Made by a program: the position numbers and the translations under genes
Shown here: positions 713 through 27,378 of the stretch, piece after piece
How the letters are laid out: each line of letters starts with the position of its first letter
Numbering within the stretch: the first letter of the stretch is position 1
Assembly (NCBI GenBank): GCA_022822785.1
Contig: JAJEAL010000010.1
Location: forward strand, 1-49,860
Direction of reading: 5' to 3'
Source of the DNA: Candidatus Poribacteria bacterium
GTDB taxonomy: Bacteria; Poribacteria; WGA-4E; PCPOR2b
Length of the DNA stretch: 49,860 nt
Notes under the pieces: generated by a model
Database searches by the model: none
What the model was told of the DNA's origin: nothing
Seen by the model: the letters and a program-made list of their open reading frames with translations, nothing else

Positions 713-825
713 TTCGATTTGCTTCAAATAAGAAAATGGTCTTGTTATGAATGCATCAAAAGAGAGCAAAATTCTGTGGTGTAATTAACTTCTAATTTGA
801 TTGTCTTCCAGTGTTAGAGGCAGAA

Positions 826-3800
826 ATGGCAAAGAAAAGAAAAAAAAGAAAACGCAAAAAGCGACGCCTAAAAGCAAACCCCAAACGTCAAGCACATGCC
901 CAGCTAAGAGGATACCTCTATCAAATCTGGCACAGTGTAGATGCTTGGTTGGACCTTGCCGACGATGAGGTGCTCTATCTGGAAGGTGCGGAAGACTTTG
1001 ACAAAATATCAGGTGACACAGCTACAGCAGTCCAAGTCAAAGACACACAGCACAAGATTACACTCAGATCTCAGGAAGTGAGTGATGCGATTAACAACTA
1101 TTGGGACTTGCGGGATAACAATCCCGATCTGAAGGTGAAATTCCGTTTTCTCACACGCTCCCAGATAGGTATGGAAAAAGGCAATCCATTTGGAAAGAGC
1201 CAACCGGGGCTTCATGTGTGGAGCCGTTGTTCAGGGGACGAAGCAGCTATCACAAAAATCTCCGAATTTTTACAAGCTGAAGGGAAAATATCACAGGAAG
1301 TAGCTGATTTTCTCAAACAGGCAGAACCTCAACAAATTTATGATCAACTCATCGAACCTATTACTTGGGAAACCGAGAGCAAACCCGCTAGTTCTGTTGA
1401 GAAATCCATAAGTGACAAACTAGTTCTGCATGGTAATCGACAAAATATCCCACCCTCTGATGCCAAGAAAGTTGTCAATCATCTTCTCGCAGAAACTTGG
1501 AGGATTGCAACACAAAAGGAAAACCGTGAACTTGCCAAGGCGCGTTTTCTTGAAATCTTCGAGGAGCAAACAACCCAAAGGGTCCCAAACCAGCATTGGC
1601 AGCAGTACCAGCAGGTGCTAACTGCAATGATGAATACTGTTAGCGCGTCATTTATCGGAGACTCATCTGATATTACTATTCAGTCTCAGTCTCCGATACA
1701 AACTGCTATACCTCCGCTCTATCGTGATGTTGTTCCAAGACCAGAGCTACTTGCGAGCATCCAAGCTACACTTCAGTCAGAAGGAATCGCTGTAATACAA
1801 GGAGGAACGGGAAGAGGAAAAACAACCCTTGCAAAATTGACCGCAAATGATATAAACGGCTCATGGCTCTGGCTGGATTTCAGAAATATAAAGTCAGAGC
1901 AGGTTGCCCCGCTTCTACGGCCGCTTGCTGCTGAAATCAGTAGTCAATCTTCACAGGTCAACATCGTTCTTGATAACTTGGACTTGCGCCCTCAAGAGTT
2001 GCAGAAGTATGAAGAAATCTTAGGTGTTGTGATTTATAGAGTCTTGGAACGTGGTGCAAAGTTGTTAATCACAAGTCAACATGAATTACCCAATAGCCTG
2101 ATTCGCCTCCTCGGTATACCACCCTCCGTAGTCCTCCCAGTTCCTAATTTTACCATATCCGAAATAGAGCAATTTGCACAACAATTGGGGTGTCCCACTG
2201 ATGACACAGAGGCTTGGGCGAAAGTAACTCAAGCACAGACAGGTGGGCATCCGATGCTTGTACACGCTCTATTCGCCCAATTACAGCAGGAAGATTGGAA
2301 GCGAGATATAATAGGAAGTATCTTACAACCACCCCCAGAATTGGTAGATGAGCGTGAACAAGCGCGACAATTGCTTCTAAACTTGCCAGAAGATCATCGG
2401 GAATTCCTCTACAGGCTTAGTCTGATGTCTACTGAACTCAGGCGAGATTACGTTCTCAACATTGGTGAGATACCAAAACCTATACCTCATCCAGGGGATG
2501 TTTTTAGTCAACTGATGGGTCCTTGGATAGATCGAGTTAATAAAACGTACTGCACAATCTCACCTTTATTAGCTAACGCAGCAGAGCAAGTTTGGCCCAA
2601 GGACAAGGTAAAAGGCTTTCATGCCCAAATCGCAAATGCAATCCTCAAAGCAAAAGATCTGACCACAATAGAAGCACAAGCTATCCTTGTACACAGTATG
2701 GCTGGACAGAACAAAGAAGGTCTTATTGCTGTTATTGAGTCATTGATGAGCACTTCAGAAGAAGATTGGAAAGGACTCAGCCAAGAATTCGCGTTGTGGA
2801 TGCATTTTAACACCAATCCCCCCCAAGAATTATTTCCTGGGGATGCCTTTGTAAATTCTCTGTTTCGATCATTTCAATATCGTATTGCGGTTGAGGTCGA
2901 ACCAGAGTCGGCACCGAAAATACTTGAAATTTGGGATGAAGAAACCAAGCCATACGAGCCACGTCAGTCGTATCTGTTGTCTCGTTTAATGCTAGCGACA
3001 CAAGCATTGAGATATTATCAAGTGTTACTTCCAGTCAAGCAGATGGTGGGCTATCTCGAAGAAATTATTGATATCATAGACAGCGACGAAAAGGTCCAAG
3101 AAGTATATGGTGATTTGACGGGACAATTTGCAGGATATCAAACTGATACAGCTAGCTTTCTCAGTTTCTTATTTAGTCTTATCTTTATGCCGCGTCCTAT
3201 TCATGCTCCGTTCGTCAGTGACCTTATTGATGCCCTAGATGAACTTGATCCAAAAATGAGGGCTTTAATATTGACTGATTTCGAGGAGGACAGTGCTGAA
3301 TCTCGGCTTTTGATTGATGGTGTCTGGTTGGCGGAAGCAAAACTTGAAAATCCGGATTGGACCAGATGCCTTCAAGTATTTGACAAAGTAATTGAAAGAG
3401 CTATCGCGTGGGGGTATCCCCATATCGCTGCGGCATCAGCAAGGGGTAAAGCCATTATCCACGATGAATACTCACATACCCCTGATGCCGCCCATAAGGT
3501 TCTGCAGGATATTTTATCAAAATTGGGTCCATTACCGGTAATAGAGGAAGAACAAGCATTCGTATATTTACACCAGAAGTGCTACAAAGAGGCACTCAGT
3601 ATTTACGAGCGGATTCTCCCTCAGTGGCATCCACCGTCAGAAAAATTAAACGTTGGACCTCTGGAGGAGTATCGTCGAGCTGCTATTTGCGCCGCATATT
3701 CGGACGATTGGAAGACAGCAGCAACCTTTTTTGAAGATGGTGCAAAAAGAGTTCAAAAGATTGAGAACACTGAAAGATATATCAGCTTGTATGCAGATGC

Positions 3801-5091
3801 GGGCTTTGCACAGTTTAAGGCGGGCAATATGCTGGATAGCATAAAGTTGTGGAATTTGGCATTGCAAAAATTTGAAATGCTCCCTCAAGACAATACAGAT
3901 CTCAAGTATTTTACCTTAAAGAAACGTTTGGCACACGCTATAAGATGGATGGCAGAGCATCAAAGTGAAAATGATCCTTCGGAATTTTTTGAACCACCAG
4001 TAGGTTTCTGTAGTAATCCAGAAACAGATGATAAAGTTTTAACCCTCCCTGATTTTCCAATCGGATATTCGTGGCTCTATTTAGCACGAATTGAGTACAA
4101 ATTTGGGTGTGGAACGACAGTTTTAGAGCATGCTTTGCAGATCACAAACCAGGCGGCATATCCAGAATTAAGCTTCCTCCTTGTCATCCTTGAGTTACAA
4201 CATGACTTTAGAAACAAAACCTTTGATAATCTGCCTCAACGTATACATCAGTTGGCGGAAGCGTCTAGCTCAATACAGAGGCATAATCAAACCGAGACAG
4301 AAATTGGAGAAAAGGGAGTTTATTCTAAATCTATCACTGATTCATCCAATGTCACTGATGTTAAGGAAATCATTGGTATATTAGTAGCAGCCCTCCTTGT
4401 TCGACTATCAGCAGGCATGGATACGCGCGAAATTCTATCTATATGGCGTGCGAATTCGTCGGAACTACCTATAGAAAATATGGTTATCGCTCTTGATCTG
4501 ATTGAAGCAATGTTATCCGGAAATGAAAATAATGCCCTAACAGTGATGAAAACACAGGAATCTAAATATGAAGAGCAGTTCTTAGCAGCATTAAAAATTG
4601 TTCATCATATCGAAACGAATCCAGAAAACCTCTTTTATGCACATACATTCATTACGACTTTTCTCATTGGCCTGACATGGTTAGATTCTGTCATGACAAG
4701 TTTAGCAGAACTTCTCTCTGCACAATGGCTTGAAAAAATAAAATTTCGCGCGACGTTGAAAACACCTATGATTACAGTGCCTCAGATAGAACAAGCCTGT
4801 AACAGCAGCGAGACCGGCAAGAAAAAAATAGGTCAGATTCTGCTTGCAGTACACCAAGCGGTTTCAGTTAGAGTAGCAGTTGAGACTTTACGGCAGTTCC
4901 GCAGTTGGATAGAATCAAGTTCAAGGCGGAAACAGGAACAGACAACGGGAAAGAATCCAATTGCACAACGCCTGATCACAGCGATGGAGAAGCCTCCACA
5001 TCTCACCGATGAAGACGTCGAAGCCCTGCGTCAGTCAATCGAAGAAGGGAAAATGCCCATAAAGTTCGATTCACCCTTTGATCCGGATTAA
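826..5091 (+). CDS. Avs/STAND-like defence NTPase with N-terminal Cap4 (DUF4297)-type nuclease
   Basis: A 1,421-aa protein. After a Lys/Arg-rich N-terminus (residues 3-16), residues 22-75 show a Cap4/DUF4297-like PD-(D/E)xK nuclease pattern: LRGYLYQIW, acidic E53/E56/D57, and Q70-V-K72. A Walker A, GGTGRGKT, is at 326-333 and a Walker B, IVLDNLD, at about 380-386, giving a STAND/NACHT-like P-loop ATPase. The remaining ~900 residues are helical and TPR-like, the usual sensor part of such proteins. Nuclease-STAND-repeat architecture is typical of Avs and related antiphage systems that cut DNA on sensing a phage protein; that role here is inferred. The ATG at 826 has AGAGG five bases upstream; a GTG at 811 is also possible. 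The gene is clearly more AT-rich than its neighbours, which suggests transfer. It lies 217 bp upstream of a type III RM operon. Confidence 0.8.
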   Translation: MAKKRKKRKRKKRRLKANPKRQAHAQLRGYLYQIWHSVDAWLDLADDEVLYLEGAEDFDKISGDTATAVQVKDTQHKITLRSQEVSDAINNYWDLRDNNPDLKVKFRFLTRSQIGMEKGNPFGKSQPGLHVWSRCSGDEAAITKISEFLQAEGKISQEVADFLKQAEPQQIYDQLIEPITWETESKPASSVEKSISDKLVLHGNRQNIPPSDAKKVVNHLLAETWRIATQKENRELAKARFLEIFEEQTTQRVPNQHWQQYQQVLTAMMNTVSASFIGDSSDITIQSQSPIQTAIPPLYRDVVPRPELLASIQATLQSEGIAVIQGGTGRGKTTLAKLTANDINGSWLWLDFRNIKSEQVAPLLRPLAAEISSQSSQVNIVLDNLDLRPQELQKYEEILGVVIYRVLERGAKLLITSQHELPNSLIRLLGIPPSVVLPVPNFTISEIEQFAQQLGCPTDDTEAWAKVTQAQTGGHPMLVHALFAQLQQEDWKRDIIGSILQPPPELVDEREQARQLLLNLPEDHREFLYRLSLMSTELRRDYVLNIGEIPKPIPHPGDVFSQLMGPWIDRVNKTYCTISPLLANAAEQVWPKDKVKGFHAQIANAILKAKDLTTIEAQAILVHSMAGQNKEGLIAVIESLMSTSEEDWKGLSQEFALWMHFNTNPPQELFPGDAFVNSLFRSFQYRIAVEVEPESAPKILEIWDEETKPYEPRQSYLLSRLMLATQALRYYQVLLPVKQMVGYLEEIIDIIDSDEKVQEVYGDLTGQFAGYQTDTASFLSFLFSLIFMPRPIHAPFVSDLIDALDELDPKMRALILTDFEEDSAESRLLIDGVWLAEAKLENPDWTRCLQVFDKVIERAIAWGYPHIAAASARGKAIIHDEYSHTPDAAHKVLQDILSKLGPLPVIEEEQAFVYLHQKCYKEALSIYERILPQWHPPSEKLNVGPLEEYRRAAICAAYSDDWKTAATFFEDGAKRVQKIENTERYISLYADAGFAQFKAGNMLDSIKLWNLALQKFEMLPQDNTDLKYFTLKKRLAHAIRWMAEHQSENDPSEFFEPPVGFCSNPETDDKVLTLPDFPIGYSWLYLARIEYKFGCGTTVLEHALQITNQAAYPELSFLLVILELQHDFRNKTFDNLPQRIHQLAEASSSIQRHNQTETEIGEKGVYSKSITDSSNVTDVKEIIGILVAALLVRLSAGMDTREILSIWRANSSELPIENMVIALDLIEAMLSGNENNALTVMKTQESKYEEQFLAALKIVHHIETNPENLFYAHTFITTFLIGLTWLDSVMTSLAELLSAQWLEKIKFRATLKTPMITVPQIEQACNSSETGKKKIGQILLAVHQAVSVRVAVETLRQFRSWIESSSRRKQEQTTGKNPIAQRLITAMEKPPHLTDEDVEALRQSIEEGKMPIKFDSPFDPD

Positions 5092-6934: not shown

Positions 6935-9484
6935 ATGATGGAATTGAAAACATATCAACTCACCGCGCTTGAGGCTTTTAGTCGTTGGCTAGAAGTGCTG
7001 AAAGAGGCACAGAATGAATCAGACACTGCGGTTGGGGCATTGAGAGGGACAGGGGTTAATATTTCAATCCTCAATGAGGCTGGTAATTATCCCAGAACGG
7101 CGTGGCAGAAATTGAAGGAAGAGGGGGGCTTGGCGGAGAGTGCGGGCGAATATATCAATCGTACCGATGAGGCGGGGCGCCCGATTCCGCATATCTGTTT
7201 CAAAGTGCCGACAGGCGGCGGTAAAACCTTGCTCGCTGCTGCCGCTCTAGAACGCCTCCATCGGCAGACCGGGCTAACATTGTGGATTGTGCCGAGCAAG
7301 GCTATCTACGAGCAAACCAAAGCCGCCCTATGGAATCGGGAACATCCCTATCGTCAAATGTTGGAGCGGGCAAGCGCGGGGCGGGTCAAAATGTTGGAAA
7401 AGGATGATCCGTTCAATAGTAACGATACTGCCAATTATCTGTGTGTTATGTTGCTCATGTTACCGGCGACAAACCGACAAAGAGGCAGAGAGTTTCTGCG
7501 TATGTTTAAGGATTCGGGGCGTTATCCTAGCTTCTTCCCAGATGGTGATGATCTCTTGAGCGACGGCCGCATGATGGAAACCTACCCCGACCTAGAGTGT
7601 AATTTTGAAGGGGGGACTATCAAGCACAGTCTGTTTAACGTGTTCAAGATATTGCGTCCCGTTGTTGTTCTTGACGAGGCACATAAAGCGTATGGATCAA
7701 AAAAGAAGGAGGCAAACGAAGAATTTGCCCGCTCCATCAACCGTCTGGACCCCCAGTTGGTCATCGAACTCTCTGCGACCCCGAACCGCGGCATAAGCAA
7801 TCTGCTCGTCGATATCGAAGGACCTGACCTAAAAAAGGAGGAGATGATCAAGCTGCCCGTGCAGGTGACATCTTTCCCAAATGCCGAATGGAGATCAACG
7901 TTAAGCGATGCGTTTGAAGAACTCGACCGCTTGGAAGCAGAAGCGCGGTCCCTTGAGCACACCACGGGACGTTATGTCCGTCCGATTGCCGTTGTGCGCG
8001 TTGAACGGACCGGTAACGATCAGAGAGATGGTGAGCGTATCCACGCAGAGGATGTGCGCGAATATCTCACGCAAAATTTGCACGTGCCTTCGGAGGCAGT
8101 TCGCGTCAAATCTGCTACAAACGATGAAATTGGCAGAGAAAATCTGCTCTCTGAATTTTCAGAGGTGCGATGGATCATCACAAAATCTGCACTCATGGAA
8201 GGGTGGGATTGTCCGTTTGCCTATCTGCTGGTGATGTTGGACAATACGCGAGCGCAACGAGCGATAACGCAACTCGTGGGGCGGGTGATGCGCCAACCGG
8301 GTGCACAACTCACCGGTAGAGAGTTGCTGGATCAGTGCTATGTCTATTGCAATAACGCCGAAGTGGGCACCGTCGTTGAGCAGGTCAAAAATGGACTGGA
8401 AGCAGAGGGGCTAACGGGGTTGGGCGACGAAGTGATGGGCGGGTTGGGCTCACAACAAGGGCAAGGCGAGATGCAGCAGCAGACTGTAAACCGCCGCGAG
8501 CGGTTTCAGGGACACGATATTTTTCTGCCGATGGTGCTCCATAAGAATGGCGACGATTGGGTACAACTCGATTATCAATCGCATATCCTACCGCATATAA
8601 ATTGGGCGGAAATCGAACCACCCGATCCGCAAGCATCGGCACCCAATAGCGCGAGACGACAATCCGCAACGGTTGATATGGATGAGACACCGCCGGTCTT
8701 CCACCCCGACCAAGCGTTGGATATTGACAAAACAGTCAAAGTCTCCCACTTTACACGCCATCTGTCCGACATTCTGCCCAATCCGTGGCAAGCCGCCCGC
8801 ATTGCAGACCAACTTATCACCCATCTAAAAGCGACCGGCGACACCAACGCCGATATCTACGACCGACGGGCTTATCTCACCCATCTGCTACGGGAACATG
8901 TCAAAAATGAAGTGGAAGCGCAAGCGGAGGAGGTTTTTCACCAAAAACTGAGGCAGGGCGAAATCCGCTTTGATTTGGAAGTTGGAAAACCAAATTTCCG
9001 TATGAAACATCACTATGAAATACAGGTTAGCTCCGATGAGAAGCCGTTATTAAGAAATTATGAACCTGTGCAGCTCACCCTGTTTGAGCCGGTCTTTGAA
9101 CGAGAATTCGATTCCGAATTGGAGAAGAAATTTGCGTGCTATCTTGACGAGCAGAGAGCGGTCCAATGGTGGCATCGAGTCGCAGTGCGTCAGCAGGGCG
9201 AGTATTATCTGCAAGGCTGGAAAAAGGGGCGAATTTACCCCGACTTCGTTGCGATGGCGAACGAAGAGCGTCTGCTAATTTTCGAGACAAAAGGTGAACA
9301 CTTAAGCGGCAACCCTGACACCGAGTACAAGCAAAAAGTGTTGAAAGCACTTGAGGGGGCGTTCAACGATGCCGGCACGATGAGACTCGGCGAATCACCC
9401 AATAGCATTTTTCGATTGGTCTTCAGCGAGCACGATTTCTCACCGATAGGCGAGCAACTGGGGACGGAATATTCGCATCGCTAG
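6935..9484 (+). CDS. res: Type III restriction enzyme helicase/endonuclease (Res)
   Basis: An 849-aa restriction subunit that translocates on DNA using ATP and cleaves with Mod when sites are unmethylated. Walker A, PTGGGKT, is at residues 92-98 and the DEAH box at 247-250. Superfamily 2 helicase motifs continue through SATPNRG, KSALMEGWDCP and QLVGRVMRQP. The C-terminal nuclease has the PD-ExK pattern P769-D770 and E784-T-K786. Both halves appear intact, so cleavage activity is likely retained. A strong GGGAGGTGG ribosome binding site lies just upstream of tandem ATGs at 6935 and 6938. It is co-transcribed with mod (12-bp gap). Length is within the usual range of the family. Confidence 0.95.
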   Translation: MMELKTYQLTALEAFSRWLEVLKEAQNESDTAVGALRGTGVNISILNEAGNYPRTAWQKLKEEGGLAESAGEYINRTDEAGRPIPHICFKVPTGGGKTLLAAAALERLHRQTGLTLWIVPSKAIYEQTKAALWNREHPYRQMLERASAGRVKMLEKDDPFNSNDTANYLCVMLLMLPATNRQRGREFLRMFKDSGRYPSFFPDGDDLLSDGRMMETYPDLECNFEGGTIKHSLFNVFKILRPVVVLDEAHKAYGSKKKEANEEFARSINRLDPQLVIELSATPNRGISNLLVDIEGPDLKKEEMIKLPVQVTSFPNAEWRSTLSDAFEELDRLEAEARSLEHTTGRYVRPIAVVRVERTGNDQRDGERIHAEDVREYLTQNLHVPSEAVRVKSATNDEIGRENLLSEFSEVRWIITKSALMEGWDCPFAYLLVMLDNTRAQRAITQLVGRVMRQPGAQLTGRELLDQCYVYCNNAEVGTVVEQVKNGLEAEGLTGLGDEVMGGLGSQQGQGEMQQQTVNRRERFQGHDIFLPMVLHKNGDDWVQLDYQSHILPHINWAEIEPPDPQASAPNSARRQSATVDMDETPPVFHPDQALDIDKTVKVSHFTRHLSDILPNPWQAARIADQLITHLKATGDTNADIYDRRAYLTHLLREHVKNEVEAQAEEVFHQKLRQGEIRFDLEVGKPNFRMKHHYEIQVSSDEKPLLRNYEPVQLTLFEPVFEREFDSELEKKFACYLDEQRAVQWWHRVAVRQQGEYYLQGWKKGRIYPDFVAMANEERLLIFETKGEHLSGNPDTEYKQKVLKALEGAFNDAGTMRLGESPNSIFRLVFSEHDFSPIGEQLGTEYSHR

Positions 9485-11218: not shown

Positions 11219-12928
11219 ATGCCGTATAACCCACAAAATCCCCTGATTGTCCAGAGCGATCGGACAATCCTCCTCGAAGTTGACAGTCCACTGTATGAAG
11301 CCGCGCGCGACGCACTCGCTAGCTTTGCGGAGCTAGAAAAGAGTCCCGAACATATCCACACCTATCGCATTACCCCCCTATCGTTGTGGAACGCCGCCGC
11401 TGCAGGGATGGCAATTGAAGAGATCTTAGATGCACTCAACAGGTACACCAAATATGATGTGCCCCAAAACATAATCGTCGAGATAACCGACTATGTATCT
11501 CGCTACGGACGGGTCAAATTGATGAAGGGCGCCGACCTGAATCCCGATAGCGCCGGGGATAACGACCTAGTTCTGTACTCCGAGGACCCGGTGCTCATGG
11601 CGGAAATCACCCACAGTGAATCGGTAAGCAGCTTGCTAGGCAAGCAGATTGATTCCCAGACCATCTCCGTTCCCTACCAACTTCGGGGACACATCAAACA
11701 GGCGTTAATCAAAATCGGTTTTCCCGTGGAAGACCTTGCAGGCTATGTCAGCGGAAGTTATCTGGAAATTGCGCCTCGGTCGAAAACCCTGTCGGGCGAG
11801 GCTTTCGGTCTGCGCGACTACCAACGCGATGCGGCGGAGGTCTTTCATCTGGGCGGCGATGTGCGCGGCGGCAGCGGTGTAATCGTTCTCCCTTGTGGCG
11901 CGGGCAAGACCATCGTCGGGCTTGGTATTCTATTCGAGACCCGGTGCCATACCCTAATCCTTTCGACAAACACAATCGCTGTGCGCCAGTGGATCGATGA
12001 ATTCCTTGATAAGACGACGATTGCGCCGGAGGAGATCGGCGAATACACCGGCGACCGTAAAGAAATCCGTCCTATCACCGTCACTACCTACCAAATCCTA
12101 ACCTATCGCCGACGCAAATCGGAGAACTTTGTCCATCTGGGACTCTTCTCCGAGATGGATTGGGGCTTGATTATCTACGATGAGGTCCACCTGTTACCTG
12201 CACCCGTCTTTCGGATGACTGCGGAGATTCAGGGGAAGCGGCGTCTCGGACTGACCGCGACCCTCGTGCGAGAGGATGGCAGAGAAGACGATGTGTTCAG
12301 CCTAATCGGACCCAAAAAGTATGATGTCCCCTGGCGAGAACTAGAGCAACAAGGCTGGATTGCGACCGCCGAATGCACCGAGATCCGCGTTGACCTGCCC
12401 GAACACCTCCGAATGAGCTACGCGGTCGCCACCCAAAGGCAGAAGTTCCGCATCGCGTCCGAGAACCCGGACAAATTCCCCGTCGTGTGCGAACTGCTTG
12501 AACGGCACAAAGGCGATCAGATCCTTGTTATTGGGCAATATATCGAGCAACTCAAGGGGATAGCGGTGAACCTGAACGCGCCGCTAATTATGGGGCAAAC
12601 CCCGAACCGTGAGCGTGGCAAACTGTATGACCAATTTCGGCGAGGCGAGATTCAGCTGCTTGTCGTCTCCAAGGTCGCCAACTTCGCCGTCGACCTACCC
12701 GACGCAAACGTCGCGATTCAGGTGTCCGGCACCTTCGGCTCACGCCAAGAAGAGGCGCAACGCCTCGGACGCATCCTTCGGCCCAAAACCGACGGCTCGC
12801 TCGCGCACTTCTACTCGCTTGTCACCCGCGATTCGCGGGATCAGGAGTTTGCAATCAACCGCCAACTGTTCCTCACCGAGCAAGGTTACCGCTACACCAT
12901 CCGCTACGGCCACGAATATGATGCTTGA
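11219..12928 (+). CDS. XPB/Rad25-type DEAH helicase
   Basis: A 569-aa superfamily 2 DNA helicase of the bacterial XPB type. The N-terminal ~190 residues match the helicase-associated region of XPB (SPLYEAARDALASFAELEKS, HTYRITPLSLWNAAAAG). Walker A, LPCGAGKT, is at 224-231 and the DEVH box at 321-324. TATLVREDG (motif III with the RED element known from XPB) and QRLGRILRPK (motif VI) follow. Archaeal and bacterial XPB proteins unwind DNA in repair, often with a nuclease partner (Bax1); no such partner is present here. It starts just after folK. The only upstream signal is AAGGA within the end of folK. Confidence 0.92.
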   Translation: MPYNPQNPLIVQSDRTILLEVDSPLYEAARDALASFAELEKSPEHIHTYRITPLSLWNAAAAGMAIEEILDALNRYTKYDVPQNIIVEITDYVSRYGRVKLMKGADLNPDSAGDNDLVLYSEDPVLMAEITHSESVSSLLGKQIDSQTISVPYQLRGHIKQALIKIGFPVEDLAGYVSGSYLEIAPRSKTLSGEAFGLRDYQRDAAEVFHLGGDVRGGSGVIVLPCGAGKTIVGLGILFETRCHTLILSTNTIAVRQWIDEFLDKTTIAPEEIGEYTGDRKEIRPITVTTYQILTYRRRKSENFVHLGLFSEMDWGLIIYDEVHLLPAPVFRMTAEIQGKRRLGLTATLVREDGREDDVFSLIGPKKYDVPWRELEQQGWIATAECTEIRVDLPEHLRMSYAVATQRQKFRIASENPDKFPVVCELLERHKGDQILVIGQYIEQLKGIAVNLNAPLIMGQTPNRERGKLYDQFRRGEIQLLVVSKVANFAVDLPDANVAIQVSGTFGSRQEEAQRLGRILRPKTDGSLAHFYSLVTRDSRDQEFAINRQLFLTEQGYRYTIRYGHEYDA

Positions 12929-23966: not shown

Positions 23967-26900
23967 TCACTCCATCCGCTGCAACCGCGCAAACGCCGCA
24001 TCCAACACCTTCTCAGAACCGCGTTCAAACCGTACCGTGATACGCATATCGAATCCGCGCCCACTGATAGCAGTAACCCTACCCCTACCGAACTTCGCGT
24101 GATACACAACGTCCCCAACGTCGTAATAGGACTGTACCTCGTCCTCATAATCGGGTTCGTCGGGGTCATAGGACGACACCACCCGGCGCCGAGGCGATTC
24201 TTCGACCATGCCCTGATCCACCAATTCGGGCGGAATCTCCTCAATGAAGCGCGAAGGGATGCGATAATCGAGGTCACGATACAGCCGTCGTGAACGGGCA
24301 TAGGTCAGGTAGACATGCTCCTGCGCCCGTGTGAGCCCAACGTAACATAACCGACGCTCCTCCTCAAGCTCGGCTTCGCTGTTATAAGAGCGTTGGTGCG
24401 GCAGCAGCCCCTCCTCAATCCCGACCATAAACACAATCGGAAATTCTAACCCTTTGGCACTGTGCAACGTCATCATCGTCACCACGTCGCTCTTATCTTC
24501 CATGTTGTCAATATCGGAAGTCAACGTAATCTTCTCCAAGAAACCCGACAGCGTCGGCTCCGGCTCGCTCTCTTCGTATTCCGCAACCGCTGCGATTAAC
24601 TCACCGAGGTTCTCTTCACGGCTCTGCGCCTCAATTGAGCCCTCGCTCCTCAAGGCTTGCAGATAGCCGCTGCGATCAAGTATATCCTCCGCTGTCCGTG
24701 CCGGCGGATCGTCCGGGTAAAACGACGTAATCAGTTCGGCGAATTCGCGCACCTTGTTCTTCGCGCCGTTGTTGAGGGTTGATATATCATTGACGCGCTG
24801 AATCGCGGCAAATAGCGGGATGCCTTCGTCGTAAGCGAAATCCTCAATCTTCTGCACCGTCGCGACCCCAATCCCACGGCGCGGGGTATTGATGATCCGC
24901 TTGATGCTTACCGTGTCAGCGGGGTTCACTATCACCCGCATATACGCCATAATATCCTTGACCTCCATCCGCTCGTAGAACCGGATCCCGCCCACAATCT
25001 GATACGGGATATTGGCGCCGCGCAGCGCATCCTCAAATGTACGGGATTGAGCGTTGATCCGATAAAAGATAACACAATCGCCATATTTCCGTCTACGTGA
25101 CCGCCACTCCCGAATCTGACGCAACACATAGTCCGCTTCCCTGATGTCGTCCGTCGCTTCATGGAGGGTGATTGCATTCCCCTGCCTGTTGGCCGTCCAG
25201 ATCTGCTTCTCCTTGCGCTTTTGGTTATTGCTGATTACATGATACGCCGCTTCCAGGATATTCTTCGTCGAGCGGTAGTTCTGCTCTAAACGTAACACCT
25301 TCGTATCCGGATAGTCATCCTCAAAATCAAGGATATTGTTGATGTCCGCACCTCGCCATGAGTAAATCGAATTATGAACACAGATCCCGTTCGCGATATA
25401 GTTGTGCAGACAGTTGACATCTAAGTCGTAAACATATCCTTGATAATCTTCCCATTCGACGGATTCAACCAAATCTTCAACAAGTTTGCCGTCTTGTTCC
25501 ACAGCTACGTACATCATCGGCTGGATCTGGCTCGCTGGCTGGAAATCGTACTTTCGACCATCCACCAAAAATGCGCTAGATTGAATCTCTAAATCGCCTG
25601 CCGCGTGAGCGATCTGGTTCGCAAATTTGACCGCTTCCTCATAGTCCAAGCGAACCTTCTCAATCCGCCATGTGTCTCGCCTTCCTGGTCTGGTATAATG
25701 CCCGTGCGACTGCAACCGTTTTTCGAGTTGGCGATCGGTGGTACTCAACGAAACACGGTGGGCATGCCAAGGACTTCGCTGGCTCACCCGCTTATCGCTA
25801 AACATTGTGAAATTGACAATCTGCCGATCAGGGGACCTGTTCCCCGAAATACCTTTCGGACGATAGCTCGGATAGTCGTGGAATAGATAAAGATCACGCA
25901 TCAGCCGTTTAGCGTTTGACGCCGTATCAATATTTTCATAGATGAAATTGATGTGATGCTGCTGAACCAGGGCATCATGACCCGCTACATCGAAAACTGT
26001 TGTGGGAATACCGTACTCAAAGGCGTAATACTGTTCCCACAGCTGTGCCTCAGCGCGGGTTCGGCAGGTTTTCAGAATCCATAGCTTATCCGCTTTCTCC
26101 TGGACGCACCGTTGACGAATCCCCGTCTGGAGCGGACGGTCTTTGAACCCATCGCTACGGGTGCCCTTGGATATGCCGATCCGATAGCCTCTGTCCCGCC
26201 TGAACATCAGATAAACATGATGCAGGTCCGGCGCGTTGCTTAAACATGAGAACAGCACGTGATTTGGGGTCGCACGCACTGTGGCACCGCTGCGCGTCCT
26301 AATCTTGACCAATTTCCCTGCGTACCACTTTCGGTGGAGGCCGATAACCTCTGTCTTAAGGGTTTTGCTTCTACCGGCTCCTGCAACAACGTCATCTTCC
26401 CAGCGTAGATCTTCAATCGGTGTTGGTCCGTCAGGGGTCTGAACCAACGTGCCTTCGGGCAAACACTGATCGTCGTCCCCCACCACGCAGATGTTCTGGT
26501 GTTTCTGTGCCAACGCATTCACCAACAGATACTGACCGCGATTGGTGTCCTGATACTCATCAACGAGGATATATTGGAACTTGTCCTGATAATACGCCAA
26601 TACATTCGGGTTCGATTCAAACAGCTCAACTGTCAGCTTGATCAGGTCATCGAAATCGAGGGCGTTATTTTGCCGGAGGAAATCCTGATACATCGGATAA
26701 AGCGTTGCCACAGACTCCTCGAAGAACCCTATTGCTTTGCTCGCATACGCTTCAGGCGAGACAAAGTCGCTCTTGGCTCTGCTAATCTCGCCGATGACGG
26801 GACCCGGATTATTCAGCGAGAGTTGGAGCGTCTTGATCAACTCCTTAATCAGCGTTTGCTGGTCCGCGGTATCGTAAATTGTGAACGAGCGATCGTAGCC

Positions 26901-27203
26901 GAGATGATGGATGTCCCGGCGCAAAATCTGAGCGCACGTCGAATGGAACGTCGCCACCCACAGCTGGCTCTGACCGATGAGCCGTTCAAGGCGGGTCCGC
27001 ATCTCTTCCGCGGCTTTGTTTGTGAACGTTACCGCGAGGATATTATACGGGGACACGCCGTGATGCCGGATGAGATGGGCGATTCGATGGGTTATCACGC
27101 GGGTCTTGCCGCTGCCCGCGCCTGACAGGATGAGCAGCGGCCCATCGGTATGCTGTACCGCTTCGCGTTGAACGGGGTTCAAGGATTCGAGGAGATCGGT
27201 CAT
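23967..27203 (-). CDS. pcrA: UvrD/PcrA-type superfamily 1 DNA helicase interrupted by an intein
   Basis: A 1,078-aa precursor; without the intein (residues 247-611) the mature helicase would be 713 aa, normal for UvrD/PcrA. It unwinds 3'-5' in nucleotide excision repair and replication-fork maintenance. Motif I, GAGSGKT, is at 28-34, Q motif LNPVQREAV at the N-terminus, motif II as VDEYQDTNRGQY, and the motif III region VGDDDQ/SIYSWRGAD is the split point. Downstream are EQNYRST, TLHSAKGLEF and VGLTRAQE (motif VI). The C-terminal YDVGDVVYHAKFGRGRV is the Tudor-like PcrA tail. The ATG at 27203 has GGAAGGA about eight bases upstream. It is monocistronic; pbpC diverges upstream. Confidence 0.95.
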   Translation of the reverse strand: MTDLLESLNPVQREAVQHTDGPLLILSGAGSGKTRVITHRIAHLIRHHGVSPYNILAVTFTNKAAEEMRTRLERLIGQSQLWVATFHSTCAQILRRDIHHLGYDRSFTIYDTADQQTLIKELIKTLQLSLNNPGPVIGEISRAKSDFVSPEAYASKAIGFFEESVATLYPMYQDFLRQNNALDFDDLIKLTVELFESNPNVLAYYQDKFQYILVDEYQDTNRGQYLLVNALAQKHQNICVVGDDDQCLPEGTLVQTPDGPTPIEDLRWEDDVVAGAGRSKTLKTEVIGLHRKWYAGKLVKIRTRSGATVRATPNHVLFSCLSNAPDLHHVYLMFRRDRGYRIGISKGTRSDGFKDRPLQTGIRQRCVQEKADKLWILKTCRTRAEAQLWEQYYAFEYGIPTTVFDVAGHDALVQQHHINFIYENIDTASNAKRLMRDLYLFHDYPSYRPKGISGNRSPDRQIVNFTMFSDKRVSQRSPWHAHRVSLSTTDRQLEKRLQSHGHYTRPGRRDTWRIEKVRLDYEEAVKFANQIAHAAGDLEIQSSAFLVDGRKYDFQPASQIQPMMYVAVEQDGKLVEDLVESVEWEDYQGYVYDLDVNCLHNYIANGICVHNSIYSWRGADINNILDFEDDYPDTKVLRLEQNYRSTKNILEAAYHVISNNQKRKEKQIWTANRQGNAITLHEATDDIREADYVLRQIREWRSRRRKYGDCVIFYRINAQSRTFEDALRGANIPYQIVGGIRFYERMEVKDIMAYMRVIVNPADTVSIKRIINTPRRGIGVATVQKIEDFAYDEGIPLFAAIQRVNDISTLNNGAKNKVREFAELITSFYPDDPPARTAEDILDRSGYLQALRSEGSIEAQSREENLGELIAAVAEYEESEPEPTLSGFLEKITLTSDIDNMEDKSDVVTMMTLHSAKGLEFPIVFMVGIEEGLLPHQRSYNSEAELEEERRLCYVGLTRAQEHVYLTYARSRRLYRDLDYRIPSRFIEEIPPELVDQGMVEESPRRRVVSSYDPDEPDYEDEVQSYYDVGDVVYHAKFGRGRVTAISGRGFDMRITVRFERGSEKVLDAAFARLQRME
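25371..26465 (-). mobile_element. 365-aa intein with GIY-YIG-like endonuclease insert in the UvrD/PcrA helicase
   Basis: It sits exactly inside the helicase motif GDDDQ^SIYSW. The first residue is Cys1 (CLPEGTLVQTPDG, block A). Block B is T66-P-N-H69 and the end is CLHNYIANGICVHN (blocks F/G, penultimate His and terminal Asn); the +1 extein residue is Ser. All residues needed for protein splicing are present. Between blocks B and F is a ~230-aa insert beginning HHVYLMF (residues 82-88) then YRIGIS (94-99) and later AQLWEQYY with E144. This resembles a GIY-YIG nuclease (VYL/YRIG, catalytic Arg/Glu region) rather than the usual LAGLIDADG type; LAGLIDADG motifs are not seen. Assignment of the insert is by eye. 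Confidence 0.9.
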
Positions 27204-27378
27204 CAAGAGGTCCTTCCAATTTGTAGGGTGGCACGCTTCTTTCAACTGAAAGTATAAACGATCTGTTCCATATTGGCAAGGTAGAAATTCACACACTATT
27301 GAGACATTTAACGCTCATCTTTTATACAGAAAATCAGCGCATCTACACAATTTGGATCAGGTGTGCTAAAATAAAGTA

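Follow-up and report, generated by a model that had tools for sequence, protein, structure and literature searches.

Inteins generally carry LAGLIDADG homing nucleases, with one HNH-bearing intein also cited (PMC5050341), and LAGLIDADG is elsewhere described as the usual intein nuclease (PMC7765530). The GIY-YIG layout places the GIY and YIG motifs near the N-terminus, followed by an arginine and then a glutamate, in a fold of three strands and three surrounding helices; Dunin-Horkawicz 2006 did not find GIY-YIG in inteins (PMC1564403). An intein in the UvrD helicase of SPO1-type phages is already known, and its presence varies between close phages: CampHawk and Goe2 have it and SP8 lacks it (PMC8785237; PMC3868849). 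A search of the open-access literature found no report of an intein with an embedded GIY-YIG domain.

The window analyzed here, a 49,860-nucleotide stretch of a Candidatus Poribacteria contig, contains a pcrA gene interrupted by a 365-amino-acid intein. This element is probably a mobile, self-splicing PcrA intein with a divergent GIY-YIG core that belongs to a nuclease family found, among the loci checked, only in inteins. Its features are as follows.

23967..27203, minus strand: intein-interrupted precursor of PcrA, a UvrD/Rep-type DNA helicase; matches TIGR01073 pcrA and Pfam UvrD-helicase and UvrD_C, with the start placed by N-terminal alignment with relatives
26466..27203, minus strand: N-extein, last residues ...VGDDDQ
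25371..26465, minus strand: intein, 365 amino acids, Cys1 to His364-Asn365, of the same length in four other poribacterial species
26238..26465, minus strand: N-terminal splicing (Hint) part, residues 1-76, with Cys1 and block B TPNH; matches Pfam Intein_splicing and NCBIfam intein_Nterm, and the full model matches Hint structures
25866..26228, minus strand: GIY-YIG-like nuclease core, residues 80-200; modeled by AlphaFold2 at about 90-98 confidence for the greater part
26172..26216, minus strand: VYLM...YRIGI motif, residues 84-98 (Tyr85, Tyr94, Arg95, Gly97); Tyr85, Gly97 and an aromatic at 94 each in 49/49 members, Arg95 in 48/49
26109..26111, minus strand: Arg119, candidate catalytic arginine in helix 1 (residues 115-122), conserved in 48/49
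26034..26036, minus strand: Glu144 in AQLWEQYY, candidate metal-binding glutamate in helix 137-151, conserved in 49/49; hhalign places it in the region of the conserved Glu in GIY-YIG proteins
25530..25865, minus strand: extra long-form domain, residues 201-312, a probable DNA-binding part; absent from short forms, conserved in five Poribacteria, strands and helices predicted at low confidence
25371..25529, minus strand: C-terminal splicing part, residues 313-365, with His354 and His364-Asn365; Pfam and NCBIfam profile matches
23967..25370, minus strand: C-extein, starting SIYSWRGAD (Ser+1)

The pcrA open reading frame spans 23967-27296 on the minus strand, with a probable ATG start at 27203. 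TIGR01073 scores 899 bits against the host protein (cut-off 911), a match that the insert splits in two. A sequence-only reading had proposed an intein in a UvrD/PcrA gene at 25371-26465, and 365 codons with Hint profile matches lie exactly there on the minus strand; Cys1, the TPNH block B, the terminal HN and Ser+1, all named in that reading, are found in the translation (Cys1, T66-P-N-H69, H354, H364-N365, Ser+1). Pfam Intein_splicing matches the intein at E=1e-15, and the two NCBIfam models, intein_Nterm and intein_Cterm, score above their cut-offs. The full structural model matches solved inteins and the Hedgehog Hint domain with E-values down to 2e-8 and target-normalized TM scores up to 0.85. 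With Cys1, T66/H69 in block B, H364-N365, Ser+1 and the Hint profiles, the element is by its sequence a class 1 intein in PcrA, one that would splice itself out of its host.

The insertion point is GDDDQ^SIYSW, as the sequence-only reading had it, but the motif it described as the most conserved ATPase motif is helicase motif III, and neither Walker A nor Walker B. The non-splicing insert it had sized at 230 residues measures about 236 (residues 77-312) and consists of two parts, the nuclease core and the extra domain. Elsewhere in the window, a 1426-amino-acid open reading frame at 811-5091 on the plus strand has no Pfam match at E<=1e-6 and is followed by helicase-like genes at 6935-9484 (ResIII/DEAD) and 11219-12928 (XPB/ERCC3-type helicase).

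The motifs first noticed in the insert, HHVYLMF...YRIGIS and AQLWEQYY, lie at residues 82-99 and 140-147. Six core residues are near-invariant across 49 relatives: Tyr85, Gly97, Trp129 and Glu144 occur in 49/49, and Arg95 and Arg119 in 48/49 (Arg119 being Lys in one). The order of the GIY tyrosine, the YIG glycine, an arginine and a glutamate is that of GIY-YIG nucleases. The second Tyr of the YIG motif is replaced by Arg in 48/49, with an aromatic residue just before it, at position 94, in all 49, and the Arg119-Glu144 spacing of 25 residues is short for GIY-YIG. AlphaFold2 modeling with the family alignment predicts strands at 82-89 and 93-100, a helix at 115-122 carrying Arg119, a strand at 127-134, a helix at 137-151 carrying Glu144, and further helices at 169-177 and 181-191, with a low-confidence loop near residues 103-113. 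This predicted strand-strand-helix-strand-helix order fits the GIY-YIG fold.

Five poribacterial species keep the reading frame of the intein open, with intein identities of 63-86%, and pairwise dN/dS values in the nuclease core are 0.03-0.15 among them. Both observations show that the insert is more than chance, and the codon comparison indicates that the nuclease core is under purifying selection.

Profile and fold comparisons bear on whether this core is a GIY-YIG nuclease. No GIY-YIG model or other profile in Pfam, NCBIfam or PHROGs convincingly matches the insert. PF01541 does not match the window protein, and only one of 49 relatives reaches even E=0.4. A LAGLIDADG or HNH identity was considered and rejected: neither motif nor profile of either family matches the insert, and the absence of a LAGLIDADG motif noted earlier from the letters stands; PF14528 has no match anywhere in genome G000. 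A PDB sequence search of the insert returned no match. The PDB fold search with the insert-only model gave no significant match, and GIY-YIG is absent among the 50 matches listed. The first reading had called for profile searches and a structure prediction; the former agree with it on HNH and LAGLIDADG but bring no convincing GIY-YIG match, and the latter gives the strand and helix order of GIY-YIG but no GIY-YIG protein among those 50 PDB matches.

Profile-profile comparison is more favorable. In hhalign, the core aligns to a GIY-YIG alignment (home-made, from poribacterial proteins found by PF01541) with a probability of 85% and a score of 32.3, placing VYLM on VYIL and the Glu144 helix on the region of the conserved Glu; none of 60 column-shuffled versions scores above 14.3, and reversing the alignment gives 9.3. 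When 2105 reading frames are ranked with the core HMM, six of the 25 GIY-YIG frames fall in the top 17 (P=2e-8), five of these six being URI-type, while none of the single core-HMM scores against GIY-YIG proteins is significant (E 0.5 or worse). A fold search of BFVD yields three significant matches, a phage methyltransferase and a helicase among them, all three presumably family members, and below the threshold about one third of the next roughly 45 matches are named as GIY-YIG, Seg-like (SegE-like), NUMOD or intron endonucleases. Two candidates for a closer affiliation were set aside: MUG113 (PF13455) has a similar K-I-G motif, but hhalign gives 10% and a score of 20.4, near the shuffled maximum of 18.3, and UvrC-type GIY-YIG proteins align weakly, at 17%. 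Conserved residues, topology, hhalign, HMM ranks and viral fold matches thus favor the GIY-YIG-like nuclease first claimed, and curated profiles and the PDB fold search do not; the name "GIY-YIG-like" is used because conservation, topology and hhalign agree but the curated profiles and the PDB fold search do not. On this evidence as a whole, the core is likely a true, divergent member of the GIY-YIG superfamily.

The second part of the insert separates two forms of the family. Long forms comprise the poribacterial inteins (365 amino acids) and the phi92-type inteins (346 amino acids), which have about 90-110 additional residues ahead of the C-terminal splicing part; nearly all other complete members are short forms of about 270-304 amino acids that lack the extra domain. 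In the full-length model, the extra domain is predicted at low confidence as beta-beta-alpha-beta-beta-alpha. It probably helps bind target DNA. An origin from a LAGLIDADG half is faintly hinted at and was not adopted: hhalign of the extra domain against the C-terminal half of a LAGLIDADG domain gives a probability of only 4-9%, and the few LAGLIDADG meganucleases in the PDB fold search appear at E 1.4-2.3. A more far-reaching reading is rather unlikely: that these nucleases make up a separate homing endonuclease class confined to inteins, with the poribacterial and phi92 long form joining a GIY-YIG cutting head to a degenerate, binding-only LAGLIDADG half.

Within Poribacteria, the 365-amino-acid intein occupies the same PcrA site in 5/85 genomes: G000, G001 and G005 of one genus, G007 of another genus and G063 of another family. 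Close relatives, among them G002, G003 and G004, carry empty pcrA alleles, GDDDQ^SIYS[WF], with extein identities to the window of 86%, 80% and 88.5%, respectively. The empty alleles of G004 (L194) and G003 (L196) read SIYSF and that of G002 (L195) SIYSW; all five occupied alleles read SIYSW. In a PcrA tree built with the intein left out, the occupied G005 and the empty G004 are sisters (support 98/96), and well-supported branches force at least four intein gains or losses. Compared with the window, intein identity exceeds extein identity in G007 (79% vs 75%) and G063 (67% vs 59%), an excess that stronger constraint on the intein could explain in part. For the window and G005, the insert is 88% identical and the N-terminal splicing part 76%. 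Patchy presence, empty alleles and higher intein than extein identity together form, at the level of sequence comparison, the pattern of a mobile intein. A different intein, with an insert that is presumably LAGLIDADG judging by eye, occurs in an RtcB-like protein at a GGIGYDLNC site in two genomes of the same genus, G002 and G004 (L103, L104).

Relatives of the intein are abundant in phages. A tblastn search with the intein found 68 phage records, 38 of them at 80% coverage or more; phi92-type Escherichia phages give the best matches, in their UvrD helicases, with 28-29% identity. Searching with the insert only also matches Klebsiella phage KP2025, Vibrio phage RYC, gp34.33 of Bacillus phage SPO1, and methyltransferase/ParB-like proteins of Streptococcus suis phages. 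On plasmids, the matches come from Nostoc, Thermobispora and Stanieria, in UvrD-type or AAA ATPase proteins, and from Providencia, in a methyltransferase-like frame. Full-length relatives in phages and plasmids are mostly 26-34% identical. The bacterial distribution outside Poribacteria is drawn from four plasmids and one contig scan that reaches close relatives only.

Viral scans returned nothing with the 365-amino-acid protein as query and one phi92-type contig with the long-form alignment; the mixed core alignment is too diverse to serve as a query. The short-form alignment recovered 96 confirmed loci from IMG/VR, of which 80 were kept. Host genes there, named by reading the flanking sequence, are mostly DNA methyltransferases (HE[PW]^C) and UvrD helicases at several sites, with a terminase-like site (DELQD^C) and a clamp-like protein among the others; host counts are approximate, and the pattern tally mislabels a few UvrD sites as methyltransferase. 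By the same flank reading, loci L019, L021, L030 and L034 have unusual hosts: PD-(D/E)XK/Cas4-like, terminase-like DELQD^C, SAM-methyltransferase-like and clamp-like. Loci L318-L320 and L322 show two variant junctions, a C-terminal YVTGN^S at a UvrD-like IYGF site, with Gly replacing the penultimate His, and VVHN^S[FT]KGAE at another UvrD-like site, after G-T-x-H.

Searching IMG/VR separately with the nuclease core alone gave 94 loci, 80 of which were kept, and all 67 that were checked lie inside an intein. The open frame and splicing signals were recognized by a simple pattern in 62 of them and by eye in four with variant junctions; one is cut by a contig edge. In this viral-contig sample, the nuclease therefore occurs only within inteins. 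Inteins with this nuclease are widespread, mostly in phages, and their nucleases make up an apparently unnamed family of putative intein-dedicated homing endonucleases.

Several other explanations can be set against this evidence. The insert could be a homing endonuclease whose fold is separate and unnamed and whose likeness to GIY-YIG goes no further than motif order; splicing and homing would then proceed alike, with different catalytic chemistry. The lack of matches in Pfam, NCBIfam, PHROGs and the PDB, by sequence or by fold, and the Arg in place of Tyr at YIG speak for such a nuclease, which we nevertheless regard as improbable: the hhalign score is far above its shuffled controls, secondary structure and residue order both fit GIY-YIG, and GIY-YIG names are enriched among the sub-threshold viral fold matches and the HMM ranks. 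Loss of function would leave a degenerate nuclease within a fixed, splicing-only intein. Some homing nucleases decay after fixation, as the homing cycle runs its course, and among the genomes searched, close forms occur in one phylum only. An intact frame in all five carriers, the insert's greater conservation over the N-terminal splicing part in the window-G005 pair, low dN/dS in the nuclease core and the continued abundance of empty alleles make this very unlikely.

The sequence-only reading had also suggested an uncommon intein-GIY-YIG combination, perhaps from a recent endonuclease swap, that is, a LAGLIDADG intein whose nuclease was replaced in the poribacterial lineage. LAGLIDADG is indeed the usual intein nuclease (PMC5050341; PMC7765530), and the faint hhalign and fold-search signals for LAGLIDADG noted above point the same way. 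Neither suggestion is supported, and a recent swap is exceedingly unlikely: phages, plasmids and Poribacteria all have this nuclease in inteins of one kind, where it is inherited together with the Hint domain over the full length, mostly at 26-34% identity; the extra domain is missing from nearly all members, which are short forms; and all checked core loci lie within inteins. The combination of Hint and nuclease is therefore old. A nuclease swap at the origin of the family is possible.

Under the favored reading, a mobile class 1 intein with a divergent GIY-YIG core, the element would splice itself out of the PcrA helicase, and its nuclease would cut intein-less pcrA alleles around GDDDQ^SIYSW, after which repair templated by the intein-bearing copy would spread it. 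Tyr85 would correspond to the Tyr of GIY, with aromatic-Arg-[Ile/Val]-Gly standing in for YIG; the catalytic Arg would be Arg119, and Glu144 would bind the metal. In the long form of Poribacteria and phi92-type phages, the extra domain (201-312) would probably aid target-site binding. Roughly a hundred or more inteins with one embedded GIY-YIG-like nuclease would, as a family, add a nuclease type to those of inteins. Among its phage hosts are helicases, methyltransferases, terminase-like proteins and a clamp-like protein, so the family could account in part for the wide range of phage genes that inteins have entered, and its members are small candidates for site-specific nucleases. Because the family libraries searched miss the nuclease domain, many of these inteins are probably on record with no endonuclease assigned.

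Compared with the GIY-YIG superfamily (I-TevI, Seg, UvrC, URI-type), the core shares the order of Tyr, Gly, Arg and Glu and the predicted order of strands and helices, but differs in its Arg for Tyr in YIG, in the conserved Trp129 and in going unrecognized by Pfam PF01541. It also differs from LAGLIDADG and HNH inteins, whose profiles do not match the insert. The nearest precedent in the literature searched is the AceL NrdHF split class 3 intein, which is likewise linked with a GIY-YIG-type homing nuclease (PMC7891396); there the nuclease is an intervening gene between the two halves of the intein, in a fractured gene, whereas the PcrA nuclease is embedded in a single class 1 intein polypeptide. 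The intein in SPO1 gp34.33, a UvrD helicase, and the related ones in CampHawk and Goe2 resemble the PcrA intein in host kind, splicing domain and nuclease motif, and sit at GDDDQ^SMYSF. Unlike the PcrA intein, they are short forms of 275 amino acids that lack the extra domain; neither the SPO1 record nor the cited text gives a nuclease class. The UvrD intein of phi92-type phages (Justusliebigvirus, e.g. Escherichia phage JohannJBalmer) is homologous along the full 365-residue length, part of the extra domain included, and occupies the equivalent host site VGDEFQ^CIYQFR. It differs in its 28-29% identity, its length of 346 amino acids and its Cys+1, and it is annotated as "intein" or just as "DNA helicase".
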